Assembly (NCBI GenBank): GCA_023512435.1 | Contig: JAILZP010000007.1 | Coordinates: 1 to 64,000 of the forward strand | DNA length: 64,000 nucleotides | Direction: 5' to 3' | From: Peptococcaceae bacterium | GTDB taxonomy: Bacteria; Bacillota; Desulfotomaculia; Desulfotomaculales; Desulfocucumaceae | Shown here: piece by piece, positions 43,796-50,842 of the stretch | Position numbering within the stretch: position 1 is the stretch's first letter | Layout of the letters: every line of letters starts with the position of its first letter | The notes under the pieces: generated by a model | What the model saw: only the letters and a program-made list of their open reading frames with translations | Told to the model about the DNA's origin: nothing | Database searches by the model: none | Translations under genes and position numbers: made by a program

Positions 43796-44266
43796 ATGCA
43801 AAAGTATATGATTGTCGGCGGCAACCGGCTGCAGGGAAAAGTTAGGGCGAGCGGCAGCAAAAATGCCTCCCTGCCCATACTGGCGGCCTCCCTGCTGGGG
43901 TCCGGGGAAAGTGTCATCCACGACGTGCCGAACCTGAAAGATGTTTCAGTAATGATGGAAGTGCTGCAGTGCCTGGGCGCCGGGATTAGAAGAGAAGGCA
44001 ACACGGTGTGCGTAGACGCGAAAAAAATTGATAACCTGGAAGTAAGCGAAGAACTGATGAGAAAAATGAGGGCTTCCAACCTGGTTCTCGGGCCCTTGCT
44101 GGCCAGGTTTAAGAAGGTGACCATCAGCCATCCGGGCGGGCAGTTTACCTCATTGCATCATTCCGGAGAGCCCGGAGGATTCCAGCCCCTGCGAACATTG
44201 CAGGCCCGCCCCCTGGGGGGAGAAACCGGCGTGAGGCGGGTTTTGTGCTCTTGTCATGATTCTTGA
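43796..44266 (+). pseudogene. murA: murA 5' part, interrupted by the serine-recombinase element
   Basis: Residues 1-115 (43796-44140) are normal UDP-GlcNAc enolpyruvyl transferase: MIVGGNRLQGKVRASGSKNA, RKMRASNLVLGPLLAR and VTISHPGG. The next residue in MurA should be the catalytic Cys (PGGC; Cys115 in E. coli), but the frame runs into the element and adds about 41 unrelated residues before a stop. The matching remainder, starting at PGGCNIGTRPMDLHLKG, is at 49925-50842. Joining the halves at the shared GG gives 417 residues, close to the E. coli length. As it stands this copy encodes only part of domain 1 and should be inactive unless the element excises or the two halves complement. Confidence 0.93.
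44117..44154 (+). other. Left attachment site (attL) of the murA element
   Basis: murA sequence up to GCCATCCG, the putative crossover GG at 44135-44136, then the element arm CGGGCAGTTTACCTCATT (44137-44154). That arm is the imperfect inverted repeat of the right-end arm AATGAGGTGAACTACCCC, 15 of 18 positions matching. Confidence 0.82.
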
Positions 44267-44289: not shown

Positions 44290-45708
44290 CTAGAAATACA
44301 GGTCCCTCCGGCCCTGTTCAATCATTTTGAGACGGTCCAGGGTCAGCCGGCGGACCTCCGGGCTGGAGATGGCGTCCAGGTGTTCGGCGATGGCTTTCTC
44401 GCCCGCTTCCCGGGTGGCCGGGGAGGCGTAGTCCTCCAGGAACTCCTTAAAGGTGAGGATGGCGTTGGGCTGGCAGACGTTCTGAATTTGCCCGCTTTTG
44501 GCCAGGGCCATGAAACGGTCGCCGGTGCGGCCCCTGCGGTAGCAGGCCGTGCAGAAGCTGGGGATGTGGCCCGAAAGGCAGACGCTGCGCAGCACCTCGT
44601 CGGGACTGCGGTGGTCCTCCACCTGGAACTGGGGGGCCTCCCCGGCGGGGCCGGCGCAGGAGGACTTCCTCTCCTGTTCCAGCCTGTAGCCCCCCACCCC
44701 GGTGCACGACCCCGCGCTGATCTGGGATACCCCCACGGCCATCAGTTCCTCCCTGAACTCCGGCCGCTCCCGGGTGGACAGGATAATGCCGGTGTAGGGA
44801 ACGGCCAGGCGCAAAACGGCGATAATCTTTTTGAAATCGGCATCCCCCACCAGGCATGGGAAGCTGTCGCAGTCCACGCCCTGCGCCGGGCGCAGCCGGG
44901 GCACCGAGACGGTGTGCGGCCCGACGCCGAACTCCTCTTCCAGGTGCAGGGCGTGCGCCAGAATGGCCAGCACCTCGAATTTAAAGTCGTACAGGCCGAA
45001 CAGCACCCCCAGGCCCACATCGTCTATGCCGCCCTCCATGGCCCGGTCCATGGCCGTGGCGTGGTAGTCGTAATCCCGCTTTGGCCCGGCGGGGTGCATG
45101 GCCGCGTAGGTCTCCCGGTGGTATGTTTCCTGGAAAAGTATATAGGTGCCGATGCCCGCTTCCTTTAAGCGGCGGTAGTTTTCCGCCGTGGTGGCGGCGA
45201 TGTTGACATTGACGCGCCGGATGCTGCCGTTTGCTTCCTTTACATCATAAATGGTTTCGATGGCCTCCAGGATGTATTCCATCGGGCAGTTCCGGGGATC
45301 TTCCCCGGCCTCCAGGGCCAGCCGTTTGTGCCCCAGGGACTCCAGCACCTTCACCTCTTCCCTCAGTTCGTCCATGGTCAGCCTCCGCCGGGGAAATTCG
45401 TTGTCCCGGCGGTAGCCGCAGTACACGCAATTGTTCACGCAGTAATTGCTGACATACAGCGGGGCAAACAGGACCAGCCGCCGGCCGTATATCTTTTCTT
45501 TAACCTCCCGGGCCGCCCGGTACATTCCGGCCAGCAGTTCCCCGTCCTCCAGGTGCAGCAGGACGGCGCACTCCCGGAGGGTCAGACCCCCGGCCAGGCG
45601 GGCCCGGTCGATAATCCGCCGGGCCTGTTCCCTGCCTGCAGTGCGGGCCTCCTCCAGCCACCCTTGAATCCGCCCCTCATCGATAAAGTCCGCCCGCATG
45701 GTTTTCAT
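44290..45708 (-). CDS. hydG: HydG, [FeFe]-hydrogenase H-cluster radical SAM maturase
   Basis: 472 residues from the ATG behind AGGAGGTGATT, overlapping the hydE stop by ATGA. The radical SAM cluster motif is C-VNN-C-VY-C. The C-terminal auxiliary cluster has the HydG-specific C-x2-C-x22-C pattern beginning CTACYRRGRTGDRFM, which separates it from ThiH. HydG cleaves tyrosine to give the CO and CN ligands of the H-cluster. All known ligands are present, so it should be functional. It is the last gene of the hydFEG operon and ends 150 bases from the left edge of the element. Confidence 0.95.
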   Translation of the reverse strand: MKTMRADFIDEGRIQGWLEEARTAGREQARRIIDRARLAGGLTLRECAVLLHLEDGELLAGMYRAAREVKEKIYGRRLVLFAPLYVSNYCVNNCVYCGYRRDNEFPRRRLTMDELREEVKVLESLGHKRLALEAGEDPRNCPMEYILEAIETIYDVKEANGSIRRVNVNIAATTAENYRRLKEAGIGTYILFQETYHRETYAAMHPAGPKRDYDYHATAMDRAMEGGIDDVGLGVLFGLYDFKFEVLAILAHALHLEEEFGVGPHTVSVPRLRPAQGVDCDSFPCLVGDADFKKIIAVLRLAVPYTGIILSTRERPEFREELMAVGVSQISAGSCTGVGGYRLEQERKSSCAGPAGEAPQFQVEDHRSPDEVLRSVCLSGHIPSFCTACYRRGRTGDRFMALAKSGQIQNVCQPNAILTFKEFLEDYASPATREAGEKAIAEHLDAISSPEVRRLTLDRLKMIEQGRRDLYF

Positions 45709-46763
45709 GTGCAATCACCTCCTGAAAATTTAATGGCATGGCCGTAATCCCGGGCAACCGGCCGGGCCAGCCCGGCCAGCAGCGCCTTGACGTTCTCCAG
45801 GGCCCGGCGGGGTTCATCCGTGATATCCGCCTTTTGGGGGTAGATGAGGTACCTGTCCCGCACCTCCGGCGGTGTGAAATTGACCATAATCACATTGGCG
45901 CCGCAGGTTAGGGCCGCCTTTCGCCCCCCGGGCGCCAGGGTGCCCAGGGCGGTGGTGGCCGGGAGGTGCGCCCGGGGCAGGCACAGCCTGGCCACGGCCA
46001 GGGTCTTCAGGGTCAGTTCAAGGCTTCCGGCTGCGGCTTCCTTCAGGGGAGTGTCCGGGTGGGGCAAAAAGGGGCCGATGCCGGCCATGTCCGTTTCCAG
46101 TTCGCGCATCAGCAGTATGTCCCCGGCCAGGCTGTCCAGGCTTTGGCCCGGCAGGCCCACCATGTTTCCGGACCCGGCCTGGTAGCCCAGTTCTTTCAGC
46201 CAGTGCAGGCACTCCAGGCGGGCCTGCAGGCTGCTGCCCGGCTTGAGGCATCGAAAAAGCTCTTCATCTGATGTTTCGTGCTTCAGCAGGTAGCGGTCGG
46301 CCCCGGCCTCCCGCCAGATCCTGTAATCTTCACGGCTGCGCTGGCCCAGGGAGAGGGTTACCGCCACGCCCCGCCTGCGCTTGATTTTTTCAACCAGCCC
46401 GGCAATGTACGGGCCGCTGTACAGCGGGTCCTCCCCGGACTGCAGGACCACGGTGCGGAATCCCATGGCCGCCGCCTTATCCACCGCGGACATTATTTCC
46501 CCTTCGTCCAGGCGGTAGCGGGGAAGCCGCCGGTTGTCCCGGCGCAGGCCGCAATACAGGCAGTTGTTGCGGCAGTGGCTGGAGAACTCGATGATCGCCC
46601 GCAGGTGGACGGCATCGCCCACCTTGGCCCGGCGGACCCGGCCGGCGGCCCGGAAAAGGGCGGCAGCCTGGCTGCCCCGGGCCGAAAGAAGGGTGACAAT
46701 ATCCTGCCTGCCCGGTTTTTTCCCATCCAGTACTACTTTCAGGGCGGCGGAAAAACGGTCCAT
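45705..46763 (-). CDS. hydE: HydE, [FeFe]-hydrogenase radical SAM maturase
   Basis: 352 residues. The radical SAM motif C-RNN-C-LY-C is followed by GLRRDNRRLPRYRLDEGEI, a typical HydE stretch, then VLQSGEDPLY and the GNMVGLPGQSLDSLAGDI loop. HydE acts with HydG in building the dithiomethylamine-bridged diiron unit of the H-cluster. BioB and PylB are relatives, but the neighbours HydF and HydG settle the assignment. It starts two bases after the hydF stop. Confidence 0.93.
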   Translation of the reverse strand: MDRFSAALKVVLDGKKPGRQDIVTLLSARGSQAAALFRAAGRVRRAKVGDAVHLRAIIEFSSHCRNNCLYCGLRRDNRRLPRYRLDEGEIMSAVDKAAAMGFRTVVLQSGEDPLYSGPYIAGLVEKIKRRRGVAVTLSLGQRSREDYRIWREAGADRYLLKHETSDEELFRCLKPGSSLQARLECLHWLKELGYQAGSGNMVGLPGQSLDSLAGDILLMRELETDMAGIGPFLPHPDTPLKEAAAGSLELTLKTLAVARLCLPRAHLPATTALGTLAPGGRKAALTCGANVIMVNFTPPEVRDRYLIYPQKADITDEPRRALENVKALLAGLARPVARDYGHAIKFSGGDCT

Positions 46764-46765
46764 GA

Positions 46766-47992
46766 CTATCCAGCCCCGTTTTCGTCCAGCAGCGCCAGCA
46801 TATCCGGGAAGGGCCCCAGGGCGCGCCGCAAAATGCCGTGCAGGCGGGCGATGAGCACTCCGTAGTTGACTATGGGCACTCCGGCGGCCTGGGCGGCCAT
46901 GATCCGGCTGATCATCTCCCGGCGGTTAATCATGCAGGCGCCGCAGTGTATGATTAAGCGGTACCGGGCCAGGTCCCGGGGCAGTTCGATGCCGCTGGAC
47001 CACCCGAAGCGCAGGTCTCCTCCCACCGCCTGCCGCAGCCAGCGGGGGATTTTCACCGTTCCGATGTCGTCGGCCACCCGGTGGTGGGTACAGGCCTCGG
47101 CAATCAGCACCTCGTCGCCGGGCTGAAGGTCTTCCACCGCCAGGGCCCCCCTGACCAGCGTGGCCAGGTCGCCCTTGTAGCGGGCAAAAAGGATGGAAAA
47201 AGAGGTCAGAAGCACCCCGGGGGGTGTGTCCGCGTCCACCTTCGGGAAAGCCTGGGAGTCCGTGATGACCAGGGCCGGGGGTTTTTGCAGCAGGCCGAGG
47301 GCGGCCTTCAGTTCCCGCTCCTTGACCACCATGGCCAGGCAGTCGTGGTCCAGCAGGTCCCGGATGGTCTGCACCTGGGGCAGGATCAGCCTGCCCCGGG
47401 GGGCGGCCAGGTCGATGGGCACCACCAGCAGCGCAAGTTCTCCGGGGGGCACCAGGTCGCCGGCAATGGTGGGGGCGGTCCAATCCTTGGGGGCGACCCT
47501 GATCATGGCCTGCTTCAGGTCGGCAATGCCACGGCGGGTCAGGGCGCTGACCCTCACCCAGGGTATTGGGGGGAGGGAGGAACCGGAATCTTGGCGGTCC
47601 GGCGGCAGGTCGGTTTTGTTCAATACCCCGATTACCGGTATATTCCTCTCCCCGGCCGCGTCAATGATACCCCTTTCCACTTCGCCGGGGCCGGTCCGGT
47701 GGTCCGCCACCAGCAGCGCCAGGTCGGTTTTGTCCAGCACCGCCAAACTTTTGGCCACCCTCAGGCTCCCCAGTTCCCCGGTGTCGTCCAGGCCCGCCGT
47801 GTCGATCAGGACCACCGGGCCGATGGGCAGGATTTCCATGGACTTGTACACCGGGTCGGTGGTGGTGCCGGCCACCGGCGAAACAATGGCCACCTCCTGC
47901 CCGGTGAGGGCGTTGATCAGGCTGGACTTGCCGGCGTTGCGCCGCCCGAAGATGGCGATGTGCAGCCTTGATCCGCGGGGTGTGTCATGCAC
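46766..47992 (-). CDS. hydF: HydF, GTPase scaffold for [FeFe]-hydrogenase maturation
   Basis: 408 residues from GTG with GGGGAGG upstream. The N-terminal Era-like GTPase has G1 GRRNAGKSSLIN (about residue 15), SPVAGTTTDPVYK, DTAGLDD and LNKTDL. The C-terminal iron-sulfur domain shows the diagnostic CTHH (CxH) and HCGAC (HCxxC) ligands. HydF carries the diiron precursor built by HydE and HydG and delivers it to the hydrogenase. It is the first gene of a three-gene minus-strand operon with its own promoter region, so the element carries the whole maturation set. No hydrogenase structural gene is in the window. Confidence 0.95.
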   Translation of the reverse strand: MHDTPRGSRLHIAIFGRRNAGKSSLINALTGQEVAIVSPVAGTTTDPVYKSMEILPIGPVVLIDTAGLDDTGELGSLRVAKSLAVLDKTDLALLVADHRTGPGEVERGIIDAAGERNIPVIGVLNKTDLPPDRQDSGSSLPPIPWVRVSALTRRGIADLKQAMIRVAPKDWTAPTIAGDLVPPGELALLVVPIDLAAPRGRLILPQVQTIRDLLDHDCLAMVVKERELKAALGLLQKPPALVITDSQAFPKVDADTPPGVLLTSFSILFARYKGDLATLVRGALAVEDLQPGDEVLIAEACTHHRVADDIGTVKIPRWLRQAVGGDLRFGWSSGIELPRDLARYRLIIHCGACMINRREMISRIMAAQAAGVPIVNYGVLIARLHGILRRALGPFPDMLALLDENGAG

Positions 47993-48047
47993 CGTTCCCG
48001 CCTCCCCGGCCGGGGTCCTTTTTCAGCCGGCCTTTTCTACCTGTATA

Positions 48048-48079
48048 ATTATATAAATTAAAGTGATCATTTATCACAA
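48048..48079 (-). promoter_or_regulatory. hydFEG promoter with overlapping palindromic operator
   Basis: On the minus strand TTGTGA (48074-48079) and TATAAT (48048-48053) are separated by 20 bases, longer than ideal. A perfect inverted repeat GTGAT-CATTT-ATCAC (48063-48077) overlaps the -35, the place expected for a regulator of the CRP/FNR type or a repressor. Confidence 0.55.
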
Positions 48080-48193
48080 AATCCCGGTTTATGACTTTGC
48101 CGGCCTTTACTCCGGGGAATGATACCGGGGTTTTATTTTTCATCGGACAATCATCCTCTACATATATTTACAAAAAACAAAGGATGACCGGGG

Positions 48194-48433
48194 ATGAAGC
48201 AGGGCGGCAAAAAAAAGGAATTTATTGTCAGGCATCACTGGAAGAATGGAAGATTCTCAGCCGAAAAATTTAAAAAGGCGCTTGAACAGATATTTGACCA
48301 CTGGCTGCTGTCGGAGGAAGGCCGGGATCCGGAACCGGGCGGCCTGAAAGCCGGAAAAACCGATCTTGAAAAAGACGGGGGGTTCCCAGCCGATGGGGAT
48401 AAAAGCGGGATACGTGAGGCTCTCCCGGGATGA
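48194..48433 (+). CDS. Small basic protein overlapping the recombinase gene (candidate directionality factor)
   Basis: 79 residues from an ATG preceded by AGGATGACCGGGG. The product has a Lys-rich N-terminus (MKQGGKKKEFIVRHHWKNG) and one clear helix (SAEKFKKALEQIFDHWLLSE), then a charged tail. It overlaps the recombinase start by 41 bases in another frame, so the two are probably cotranscribed and translationally coupled. Serine integrases need a small recombination directionality factor to excise; its size, charge and position make it a candidate, but no family similarity is recognised. Confidence 0.5.
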   Translation: MKQGGKKKEFIVRHHWKNGRFSAEKFKKALEQIFDHWLLSEEGRDPEPGGLKAGKTDLEKDGGFPADGDKSGIREALPG

Positions 48434-49889
48434 GGACGGGCAAAGTGAAAGCATAGAAGGCCAAAAGACGGTAATTGCACATTATTACAGGAACGTGCTG
48501 CATTACACGGGGGAAATAGTCTTCTTCGTTGACGACAACTGCAGCGGGATGAATTTTGACCGGCCGGACTTTCAAAGGATGAGAAGGGAAGCCCTGAACA
48601 ACAACCTGGATATCGTGGTTTTCAAAGACCTGTCCAGATTCGGCCGGGACAGCGCGGATACCCAGAAGTACTGGAAGGAGTTTGTCCTCAAGTGCGGTGT
48701 GAGACTGATTGCCGCCTCGCAAAACCAGGACTCCCTGGACAGGCACACCAGGAAGACCCTTGGCCTTTACGCCTGGCTCAACGAACAGTACGTGGAGGAC
48801 ATATCGGAAAAAATCCTGGAGAATTTCAGGTCCAGGCAGAAAAAAGGGGATTTGATCATTACGGTCCCGTACGGCTATGTAAAACGGGGGAAATCGGTCA
48901 GCGTCGACGAATTCGCGGCGGAGACGGTAAAAAGGATATTTAGTCTTTACCTGGCCGGGTACGGGTATAAAAAGATCGCCTCAATCATGAATGCGGAGGG
49001 AATACTGACGCCCTCGGCGTATAAAAACCGGTCCGGCGCACTGCCGGCGTGGAGCTTTCAGGCGGTGAAAAATATTTTGACCAATGAGTTTTACACCGGC
49101 GTCCTGCTGCAGGGGAAAACTTATAAGAAAGAAATAAAAGGCAGGTCTTTCCGCACCCCCCCCGACCGGGTGCTGAAATTTCCCGGCCACCATGAAGCCA
49201 TTATTGACAGGGAGGTTTTCGACCTGGTCCAGGAGACCCTCAAGGACAGAAAAAAAAGGTCGTTCAGGGGTGCAAAGATCACTGCTCCCCGCCTTTTCTC
49301 GGGAAAGATAGTTTGTGAGAAGTGCAAAAAGACATACCTGTTCAAATCCAGGAGAAAAGGCGGCCCCGGATATTATATTTGCGGAACGCGCTACAAGTAC
49401 GGCCCGGAATACTGCAAGAACATCACCATCCCCGAGAACAGGCTTGCCGGATTGATCCGGGAACAATTGAGAGAAAAGACGGATGAGAACAGGGAAGTGT
49501 TGCCGGAACTTAAAAGCAGGGCCGGCAGGCGGCCGCACTACGGAAAGACAGACATGGTCATCGCCAGGATAAGAAAGGAAATAGAAAAAAGGGAAAACAC
49601 GCTTAAAAAAATATACCTGGACAGACTTGAGGCCAGAACCGGGTTCCCCGAATACCTGCTGGAACAGCTTATCAGCCGGACGTCCTCGGAGATAGACAGT
49701 CTAAGGCGGCAGCTGGAGTCGGCAACGGCCGCCCGTGACGCTTCCGCGGACCGGCGGGAAGCGCCGGAAGACCTGGACGGAAAACTGCTGAGATTTATTA
49801 ACAGGCCGCTGGCCCGGAAGGACGTAGAGATTTTTATAAAAGAAATCAGGATTGACGGCGGGATAATCGACGTATACTGGAATATATAA
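48393..49889 (+). CDS. Large serine recombinase
   Basis: 498 residues from the ATG behind GGGGGG; an upstream TTG at 48366 is possible. The N-terminal resolvase domain has the catalytic Ser in GYVRLSRDED (about residue 10) and the DLSRFGRDSADTQKY motif. A recombinase domain follows (VPYGYVKRGKSVSVDEFAAE, then IASIMNAEGILTPSAYKNRSG), then a zinc ribbon (CEKCKKTYLFKSRRKGG with later Cys residues) and a coiled-coil segment (IRKEIEKRENTLKKIYLDRL). This is the TnpX/Ccr/integrase architecture. The gene ends 20 bases before the right attachment arm, as usual for integrases next to their attP. Base composition looks lower in GC than the surrounding mur genes. Confidence 0.93.
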   Translation: MGIKAGYVRLSRDEDGQSESIEGQKTVIAHYYRNVLHYTGEIVFFVDDNCSGMNFDRPDFQRMRREALNNNLDIVVFKDLSRFGRDSADTQKYWKEFVLKCGVRLIAASQNQDSLDRHTRKTLGLYAWLNEQYVEDISEKILENFRSRQKKGDLIITVPYGYVKRGKSVSVDEFAAETVKRIFSLYLAGYGYKKIASIMNAEGILTPSAYKNRSGALPAWSFQAVKNILTNEFYTGVLLQGKTYKKEIKGRSFRTPPDRVLKFPGHHEAIIDREVFDLVQETLKDRKKRSFRGAKITAPRLFSGKIVCEKCKKTYLFKSRRKGGPGYYICGTRYKYGPEYCKNITIPENRLAGLIREQLREKTDENREVLPELKSRAGRRPHYGKTDMVIARIRKEIEKRENTLKKIYLDRLEARTGFPEYLLEQLISRTSSEIDSLRRQLESATAARDASADRREAPEDLDGKLLRFINRPLARKDVEIFIKEIRIDGGIIDVYWNI

Positions 49890-49900
49890 GGAAAAGATCC

Positions 49901-50842
49901 GTGGCGGCCAATGAGGTGAACTACCCCGGGGGATGCAACATCGGGACCAGGCCCATGGACCTGCACCTGAAAGGGCTCCAGCGCATGGGGGCCGTCATTT
50001 CGGAAAGATACGGCTACATCACGGCGGAGAGCCGGGTGCTGACCGGGGCCGAGATTTACCTGGATATGCCCAGCGTGGGGGCCACGGAAAATTTGATGAT
50101 GGCGGCGGTGCTGGCCAGGGGGACCACCATGATTAAAAACGCCGCCAAGGAGCCCGAGATAGTGGATTTGCAGAATTTTCTCAACCGCTTGGGAGCCGAC
50201 ATAAAAGGGGCCGGTACGGACGTAATCAAGATCAGAGGAGTGGAATCCCTGGGCACCGCGGAACACACGGTTATTCCGGACCGGATTGAGGCCGGGACTT
50301 TCATGGTGGCCGCGGCCATGACCGGCGGTGATGTGGTGATCACAAATGTCATTCCCGAGCATTTCGAGGCGGTGACGGCTAAGCTGAGGGAGGCCGGGGT
50401 GGAAATCACGGTGGGGGACGGCCAGGTCAGGGTAAGGGGAAATCCGCCCTACAGGTCGGTGGATGTCAGGACCCTGCCCTATCCCGGTTTTCCCACCGAC
50501 ATGCAGCCCCAGTTCATGGCCATGATGTCGGTGGCCCGGGGAACCAGCATAATCACCGAGACCATATTTGAAAACAGGTTCAAGCACGTCAGCGAGCTCC
50601 GGCGGATGGGGGCCGACATAAAGGTGGAGGGCCAGACCACCATCATCAAGGGAGTTTCCAAGCTCAGCGGGGCGGTGGTGGAGGCGTCCGACCTGAGGGC
50701 CGGGGCGGCCCTGATCCTGGCGGCCCTGGTGGCCGAGAACGGAACCGTGGTTGAAAACATAGATCACATCGACCGGGGCTACGACCGCCTGGAAAACAAA
50801 TTCGGATCACTGGGGGCAAGAATAATCAGAGTGCACAGTTGA
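49901..50842 (+). pseudogene. murA: murA 3' part with the catalytic cysteine
   Basis: From codon 49934 (Cys) to the stop, 302 residues of MurA: CNIGTRPMDLHLKG, SVGATENLMMAAVLA, PEIVDLQNFL, TVIPDRIEAGTFMVAAAM and the C-terminal RMGADIKVEG and DLRAGAALILAAL. Eleven extra residues come from the element side, ending PGG. A GTG with AAGGA seven bases upstream could allow translation of this half alone, so a split enzyme is conceivable. The half ends with an ordinary MurA C-terminus. After excision it continues in frame from the 5' part without any base change. Confidence 0.92.
49910..49947 (+). other. Right attachment site (attR) of the murA element
   Basis: Element arm AATGAGGTGAACTACCCC (49910-49927), core GG (49928-49929), then murA sequence GGGATGCAACATCGGG. 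Together with the left arm it reconstructs a 38-bp near-palindromic attP centred on GG. Confidence 0.82.

Follow-up and report, generated by a model that had tools for sequence, protein, structure and literature searches.

A small open reading frame (ORF) at 48194..48433 on the plus strand of the window, i.e. the whole stretch of 64,000 nucleotides analysed here, is, as judged from its conservation in a second species, a coding gene tied to the large serine recombinase gene that it overlaps. By analogy with known systems, its product may be the recombination directionality factor of this recombinase, whose element splits the cell-wall gene murA; we consider this role plausible, with roughly equal chances of being right or wrong. 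The directionality factors of serine recombinases have no sequence in common, which makes them hard to recognise, and the set of reversible DNA switches grows with every new pair.

The small ORF and its overlap with the recombinase gene

The small ORF begins with an ATG, encodes 79 residues and ends 41 nt inside the recombinase gene (48393..49889, plus strand; ATG at 48393, with an alternative TTG at 48366), whose frame is +1 relative to its own. A GGA lies 9 nt upstream of the small-ORF ATG, and one is found at similar spacing in the copy from the second species (G001, see below). The extent of the frame and its overlap with the recombinase start are exactly as described in the earlier note. 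The shared stretch (48393..48433) is identical in G001 at 36 of its 41 nt. The same note called the protein lysine-rich, which holds for the window copy (12 K in 79 residues, pI 9.0) but not as a general trait, since the G001 copy has 6 K in 78 residues and a pI of 5.6. AlphaFold models of the small protein from two runs were poor (pLDDT 56.5 and 59.5) and present a single long helix at about residues 23-40.

An element of the large serine recombinase kind in murA

The recombinase carries the Resolvase (PF00239, 1.2e-19), Recombinase (PF07508, 6.4e-26) and Zn_ribbon_recom (PF13408, 2e-9) domains, and matches the integrase family phrog_95 of PHROG (8.4e-90). Its residue S20, which we take to be the catalytic serine, is invariant in 10 of 10 aligned sequences. 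With these domains and the serine, it is by its sequence features a large serine recombinase, and its nearest solved relative by sequence is TnpX (2mhc, E 6.3e-14).

The gene pair occupies the right end of a 5.8-kb element, on the plus strand, with hydG, hydE and hydF on the minus strand. The element separates a 5' part of murA (43796..44136 up to the core, plus strand; PF00275, TIGR01072 positions 1-117) from a 3' part (49928..50842 from the core, plus strand; PF00275, TIGR01072 positions 109-415). An inverted repeat and a join test delimit attL at 44129..44155, made of a murA half and the element arm AGTTTACCTCATTG (44142-44155), and attR at 49909..49935, made of the element arm CAATGAGGTGAACT (49909-49922) and the other murA half. 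When the flanks are joined in frame across the short core, all 11 joins listed yield an open murA of 417 codons. The possible crossover dinucleotides, in register and identical at both ends, are CC 44132-44133, GG 44135-44136 and GG 44138-44139. The middle GG is the likely core; matched with 49928-49929, it stands exactly 5 nt from either element arm, so that the reconstituted attP is a 40-bp dyad and the circle would measure 5793 bp. With a restored target, a dyad attP and an identical 2-bp core, the element is, as far as its sequence anatomy goes, one of the large serine recombinase kind.

The only exact copy of the 16-base attL arm in the genome of the window is attL itself; when up to three mismatches were allowed, 20 copies were found against 2 for the reversed control, and 13 against 11 in G001. 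Downstream of the G001 recombinase there is again the 3' part of murA, with a similar attR, and a 5' fragment of murA ends another contig of this genome; the arm search found no attL there, the best copy having 2 mismatches. In G005 and G002, murA is unbroken at the equivalent site. A search by motif pattern among 11 stretches (L127-L129 left out) found no murA site in L123 and L124.

Conservation in a second species

A homologous small ORF is present at 1028-1264 of locus L004, from a Desulfovirgula sp. MAG of the same genus as the window (G001, isolate Tomsk_2_57_21, DYET01000021.1). The two copies match with an E-value of 1.4e-22 and about 55-56% identity over residues 1-77, their lengths agree within one residue, and in G001 too the ORF has this frame offset and an overlap of the same kind with a downstream recombinase that is 78% identical to that of the window and lies at the same murA site. 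All 199 nt before the overlap align without gaps. They contain 67 differences, distributed as 21/15/31 over codon positions 1/2/3 (permutation P 0.0046), and among the six frames the small-ORF frame alone is free of stops in both species. When the 67 changes were placed at random in 5000 trials, the frame stayed open in 2.1%, a pN/pS as low as the observed 0.40 occurred in 0.12%, and both together never occurred; the two other forward frames have pN/pS ratios of 0.94 and 1.17. Over the 65 aligned codons that precede the overlap, the small ORF has a Nei-Gojobori dN/dS of 0.22, compared with 0.10 in the recombinase. The signal of constraint comes from the first 43 codons (9/7/19 by codon position); between codon 44 and the overlap, conservation is poor (12/8/12).

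Since the frame is open and constrained in two species, the small ORF is a coding gene tied to the recombinase. The earlier note had proposed to look for conservation of this ORF beside related recombinases and had named poor conservation of the frame among homologous elements as a refutation of its idea; in the single homologous element found, the same pair is present with the frame and the overlap kept.

The known copies of the small ORF are these two. A search of 100 genomes gave matches at E ≤1 in 23, among which, beyond the genome of the window, G001 alone is convincing (the next best has an E-value of 0.0018). In a phylum-wide search, the only matching genome among 398 was that of the window itself, and a scan of a named collection with two peptide patterns gave one relative, the G001 sequence, among 102 pattern matches.

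The conserved region extends upstream of the small ORF: in the leader up to 48193, 65 of the 81 nt of 48113-48193 are identical in G001. Similarity starts at about 48110, at a terminator-like hairpin with a T-run (48109..48140, plus strand; -10.9 kcal/mol, z -2.3) that has a counterpart in G001 (-14.0 kcal/mol, z -2.3) and marks the border between cargo and integration module. Because the sequences to the left of this border differ between the two species and the module itself matches, the integration module looks like a unit that can be joined to different cargo. A pattern scan returned two promoter-like sites and one terminator-like site, all within 48000-48077 and outside the conserved leader (shuffle means 0.6 and 0.7); the hairpin at 48109..48140 is absent from the sites that it listed.

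Searches for relatives of the small protein

The earlier note recognised no similarity for the small protein, and our searches agree: no family of Pfam, NCBIfam, PHROG or PDB was recognised. For the window copy there were no Pfam or NCBIfam matches up to E 10 and a single PHROG match at E 0.14, and the G001 copy gave three Pfam matches, all below their cut-offs (best E 0.024). The PDB searches returned no meaningful match (best E 1.3 and 0.14). Candidate relatives among phages and plasmids amounted to 5 phage records and 1 plasmid record, every one at E 6 or worse, and two short peptide patterns per query found no encoded relatives in the 23 viral stretches retrieved with the recombinase or in the 56 retrieved with the small ORF. 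No DNA-binding family was recognised in the small protein.

Several specific assignments were tried and rejected. TnpW (PF14202) gave neither a Pfam match nor a score with a two-sequence TnpW profile. For DUF6870 (PF21757) there was also no Pfam match, and a mechanically trimmed profile of the C-terminal part of this family gave P 0.11 for the window copy and 0.012 for that of G001. Membership in the A4 family described below was not supported either, as hhalign to A4 found nothing and the A4 profile gave no notable score. Finally, no similarity to YotN/SprB, the solved factor of SPbeta, appeared in the PDB searches, the library of which includes the 9dxd fusion.

A profile of 20 upstream-ORF segments, trimmed by hand after the window ORF had been seen and with this ORF excluded, ranked the window copy 3rd and the G001 copy 1st among 6995 ORFs (P 4.5e-4 and 1.1e-5). 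Against shuffles, the same profile, with its segments chosen after seeing the window ORF, placed them 7th and 1st of 4002. Without the DUF6870 segments, the ranks were 10th and 5th of 6995, and a profile of the reversed segments gave P 0.17 (window) and 0.073 (G001). The first, eleven-segment profile gave E 50 (window) and 12 (G001) among 17461 ORFs, and its iteration led to ranks 309 and 190 of 17461.

The absence of relatives is no objection to a directionality factor, because known factors share no significant sequence similarity with one another, according to the accessible text of PMC5025042. We found no description of the small ORF or of its recombinase/murA/hydEFG element in the literature covered, with most subscription papers lying outside this coverage. 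If the small protein is indeed a directionality factor, its sequence would be new, and its role and layout would be known ones.

Small ORFs beside related recombinases

We examined 121 loci, namely those of the window and of G001, three further groups of 28, six and five, and 80 viral ones (the best 80 of 201). BLAST identified the recombinase in 119 of them (L027 and L032 being without), at 25-36% identity for all but the window and G001. Many of these related recombinases have a small ORF just 5' on the same strand, from several families. For example, TnpW (PF14202), a family named after the TnpX transposon, is encoded upstream of the recombinases in L017-L019. ORFs of the DUF6870 type (PF21757) are present in 59 of the best 80 viral loci (L141-L220, e.g. 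L145, L151 and L170), as detected with a profile of ours, mostly just before the recombinase; two of them were tested against Pfam. SHOCT-like proteins occur in L022 and L031 and, as judged by eye, in L023, L025 and L026; there were also short ORFs without a name.

An unnamed family, called A4 here, is characterised by a stretch like KISDMLVFLMYRKLK (consensus KIxDMLVFLxYRKLK, seven sequences aligned). All 12 distinct sister-clade loci with enough upstream sequence (L005-L015 and L117) have an ORF of this family in the same slot, five of them assigned by eye; a further row of the A4 clade (L115) starts too near its contig end to be judged. None of the seven A4 ORFs tested had a Pfam or NCBIfam match over the cut-off.

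A profile built from eleven of these ORFs detected 65 ORFs at E <1e-5 in the examined loci, and 54 of the 65 come from loci other than the eleven that supplied the profile. When weaker ones and three identified by eye are included, there are 74 distinct ORFs, of which 73 are on the strand of the recombinase and 67 end 45-300 nt before the recombinase match; ORFs of the DUF6870 and short groups were not seen to overlap the recombinase. In a recombinase tree of 67 of the 118 usable sequences, with the DUF6870 and unlabelled rows thinned, the pair of the window and G001 groups with the A4 clade and L223 (support 97/85), away from the TnpW and DUF6870 types. The kind of small ORF follows this tree, with 16 changes compared with 41.7 after shuffling, a contrast inflated by near-copies and based on labels partly assigned by eye.

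TnpW, DUF6870 and A4 proteins resemble the window ORF in slot, strand and shortness, the recombinases behind them being about 28-36% identical to that of the window, and many of them contain a segment that by eye resembles a strand-turn-helix. We found no paper on DUF6870, and ORFs of this type are candidate partner proteins of serine recombinases. No function was found for these same-slot ORFs, and together they turn one guess into a list of testable pairs.

Comparison with known recombinase-factor pairs

The best precedent is the skin element of B. subtilis. As given in the accessible part of PMC6957869, skr encodes 64 residues directly upstream of spoIVCA, overlaps it by 101 nt via a +1 frameshift, and is required for the excision that rebuilds sigK. 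The window ORF has the same arrangement: it lies directly upstream of its recombinase gene, which its 3' end overlaps in the +1 frame, within an element that splits a host gene. The likeness is one of layout, and the overlap is 41 nt instead of 101 nt. In addition, skin splits sigK and excises in sporulation, whereas the element of the window splits murA. By analogy, the skr arrangement supports the factor guessed in the earlier note. If this is confirmed, the overlapping skr/spoIVCA layout recurs and becomes a usable search rule.

Other systems offer a more general parallel. In the accessible text of PMC5025042, CD1234 (53 residues) of the C. difficile skin element, which acts with CD1231, is needed for excision and not for integration. 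GirX (42 residues), the factor of the gin element in gerE, works with GirC, was shown to act in excision, blocks integration and was found by deletion mapping, according to the part of PMC5595907 that was accessible. AlphaFold complexes led to the proposal of a factor for the yin element, and unlike factors were modelled onto the same, C-terminal part of their recombinases (PMC10747680, accessible in part). As far as these partial accounts go, CD1234-CD1231, SprB-SprA of SPbeta, GirX-GirC and, by prediction, yin all tie a small protein of the element to a large serine recombinase in a gene-splitting element, as here. Among these factors, YotN/SprB showed no similarity to the window ORF in the PDB searches.

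Some large serine recombinases differ in this respect. TnpX of Tn4451 needs no other transposon protein (as cited in PMC3783163), TndX of Tn5397 is sufficient for both integration and excision (PMC3783163, PMC5704250), and CcrA/CcrB act without a factor (PMC5595907), in each case as stated in the accessible portions. TnpX and TndX thus excise without a directionality factor in these sources, and the likeness of the window recombinase to TnpX is that of its nearest solved relative.

Possible functions of the small protein

If the small protein is a directionality factor, the small ORF and the recombinase gene, at the right end of the element, would be expressed together, presumably from a shared message, and their 41-nt overlap would couple the translation of the two frames. 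Acting by itself, the recombinase would join attP and attB and so insert the element into murA. The small protein, translated from that message ahead of the recombinase, would bind to the enzyme and turn it towards attL x attR, so that the element would be cut out and murA restored. The factor proposed in the earlier note keeps part of its case. In its favour are a real, constrained and co-conserved gene in the same element as the recombinase and with no recognised relatives, the same pair at the same murA site despite a different sequence on the left, intact-looking attL and attR, the skr precedent and the small ORFs of the sister clade. It is weakened by recombinases of the TnpX/TndX kind, which need no factor, by the ORF being known in only two copies, by the poor models and by the lack of a YotN/SprB match. 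Moreover, a factor always made together with its recombinase would require a separate explanation for insertion by the recombinase alone, which also counts against it.

Those same factor-free systems suggest that the small protein could instead be a regulator of the integration module, e.g. an autorepressor or a stabiliser of the recombinase, with the recombinase excising on its own and the small protein not setting the direction. The slot itself is no proof of a factor role, as TnpW occupies it in L017-L019 and yet TnpX is the sole transposon protein reported as required in the accessible sources. We regard such a regulator as unlikely, though deserving serious attention: the window recombinase groups with the A4-type clade (97/85) and not with those bearing TnpW, and the small protein contains no recognised DNA-binding family. 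The overlap, the position of the recombinase start inside the small ORF and the conserved leader would also fit an ORF that acts mainly in cis, its translation loading ribosomes on the recombinase start and its peptide mattering little. This appears improbable, because the constraint on the protein peaks in the first 43 codons, far from the overlap, where a coupling device needs no fixed peptide. Finally, a spurious open frame or a fossil might be suspected from the two available sequences and the poor conservation between codon 44 and the overlap, but it is hardly tenable, as none of the 5000 random placements combined an open frame with so low a ratio, no other frame is free of stops in both species and neither of the two other forward frames shows constraint; the conservation tests led us to reject a spurious ORF.

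Cargo of the element and state of murA

The recognised cargo consists of hydG (44290..45714, TIGR03955, 9.3e-196), hydE (45705..46763, TIGR03956, 3.7e-102) and hydF (46766..47992, TIGR03918, 5.4e-172) only, all on the minus strand. The hydF of the element encodes the sole HydF above the curated cut-off in the genome of the window, which is 88% complete, and an [FeFe]-hydrogenase gene that passes the cut-off lies elsewhere in this genome, on contig 39. A second, full-length murA is present on contig 63. In G001, the hydF-hydE-hydG cluster is located on contig 178 (L120, 11969-15670), with an above-cut-off [FeFe]-hydrogenase gene about 650 bases away; a single HydF passes the cut-off in this genome, in which the contig that carries the element begins 1 kb upstream of the small ORF and so truncates the element.

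It is conceivable, if doubtful, that the pair acts as the switch controlling a gene-intervening element whose benefit to the cell comes in growth rather than in sporulation. Such an element would have two states, one in which the sole hydE-hydF-hydG set is kept and the second murA is split, and one in which the small protein triggers the restoration of murA and the hyd genes leave on the circle; the small protein would then found a new and very restricted family of factors. Confirmation of the factor role would also show whether reversible insertion links hydrogenase maturation to a cell-wall gene.

The two parts of murA are split in both species yet strongly constrained, with dN/dS values of 0.06 (5' part, 83 codons) and 0.10 (3' part, 304 codons). 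Recent separate insertions or regular excision would both explain this constraint. The dS values between the window and G001 are 1.18 for the recombinase, 1.02 for the small ORF, 0.72 for the 3' part of murA and 1.13 for its 5' part (83 codons), and their use as an insertion date is distorted by base composition (the recombinase has a GC content of 38% in G001 and 52% in the window). The hydF, hydE and hydG genes have dS values of 0.31-0.36. Twelve other genes in the flanking cluster, kept from 30 ORF pairs after removal of murA, the recombinase and 16 pairs taken as shadow frames, have higher values, 0.58-0.88; the lower values of the hyd genes suggest a later transfer of the hydF/E/G cargo.
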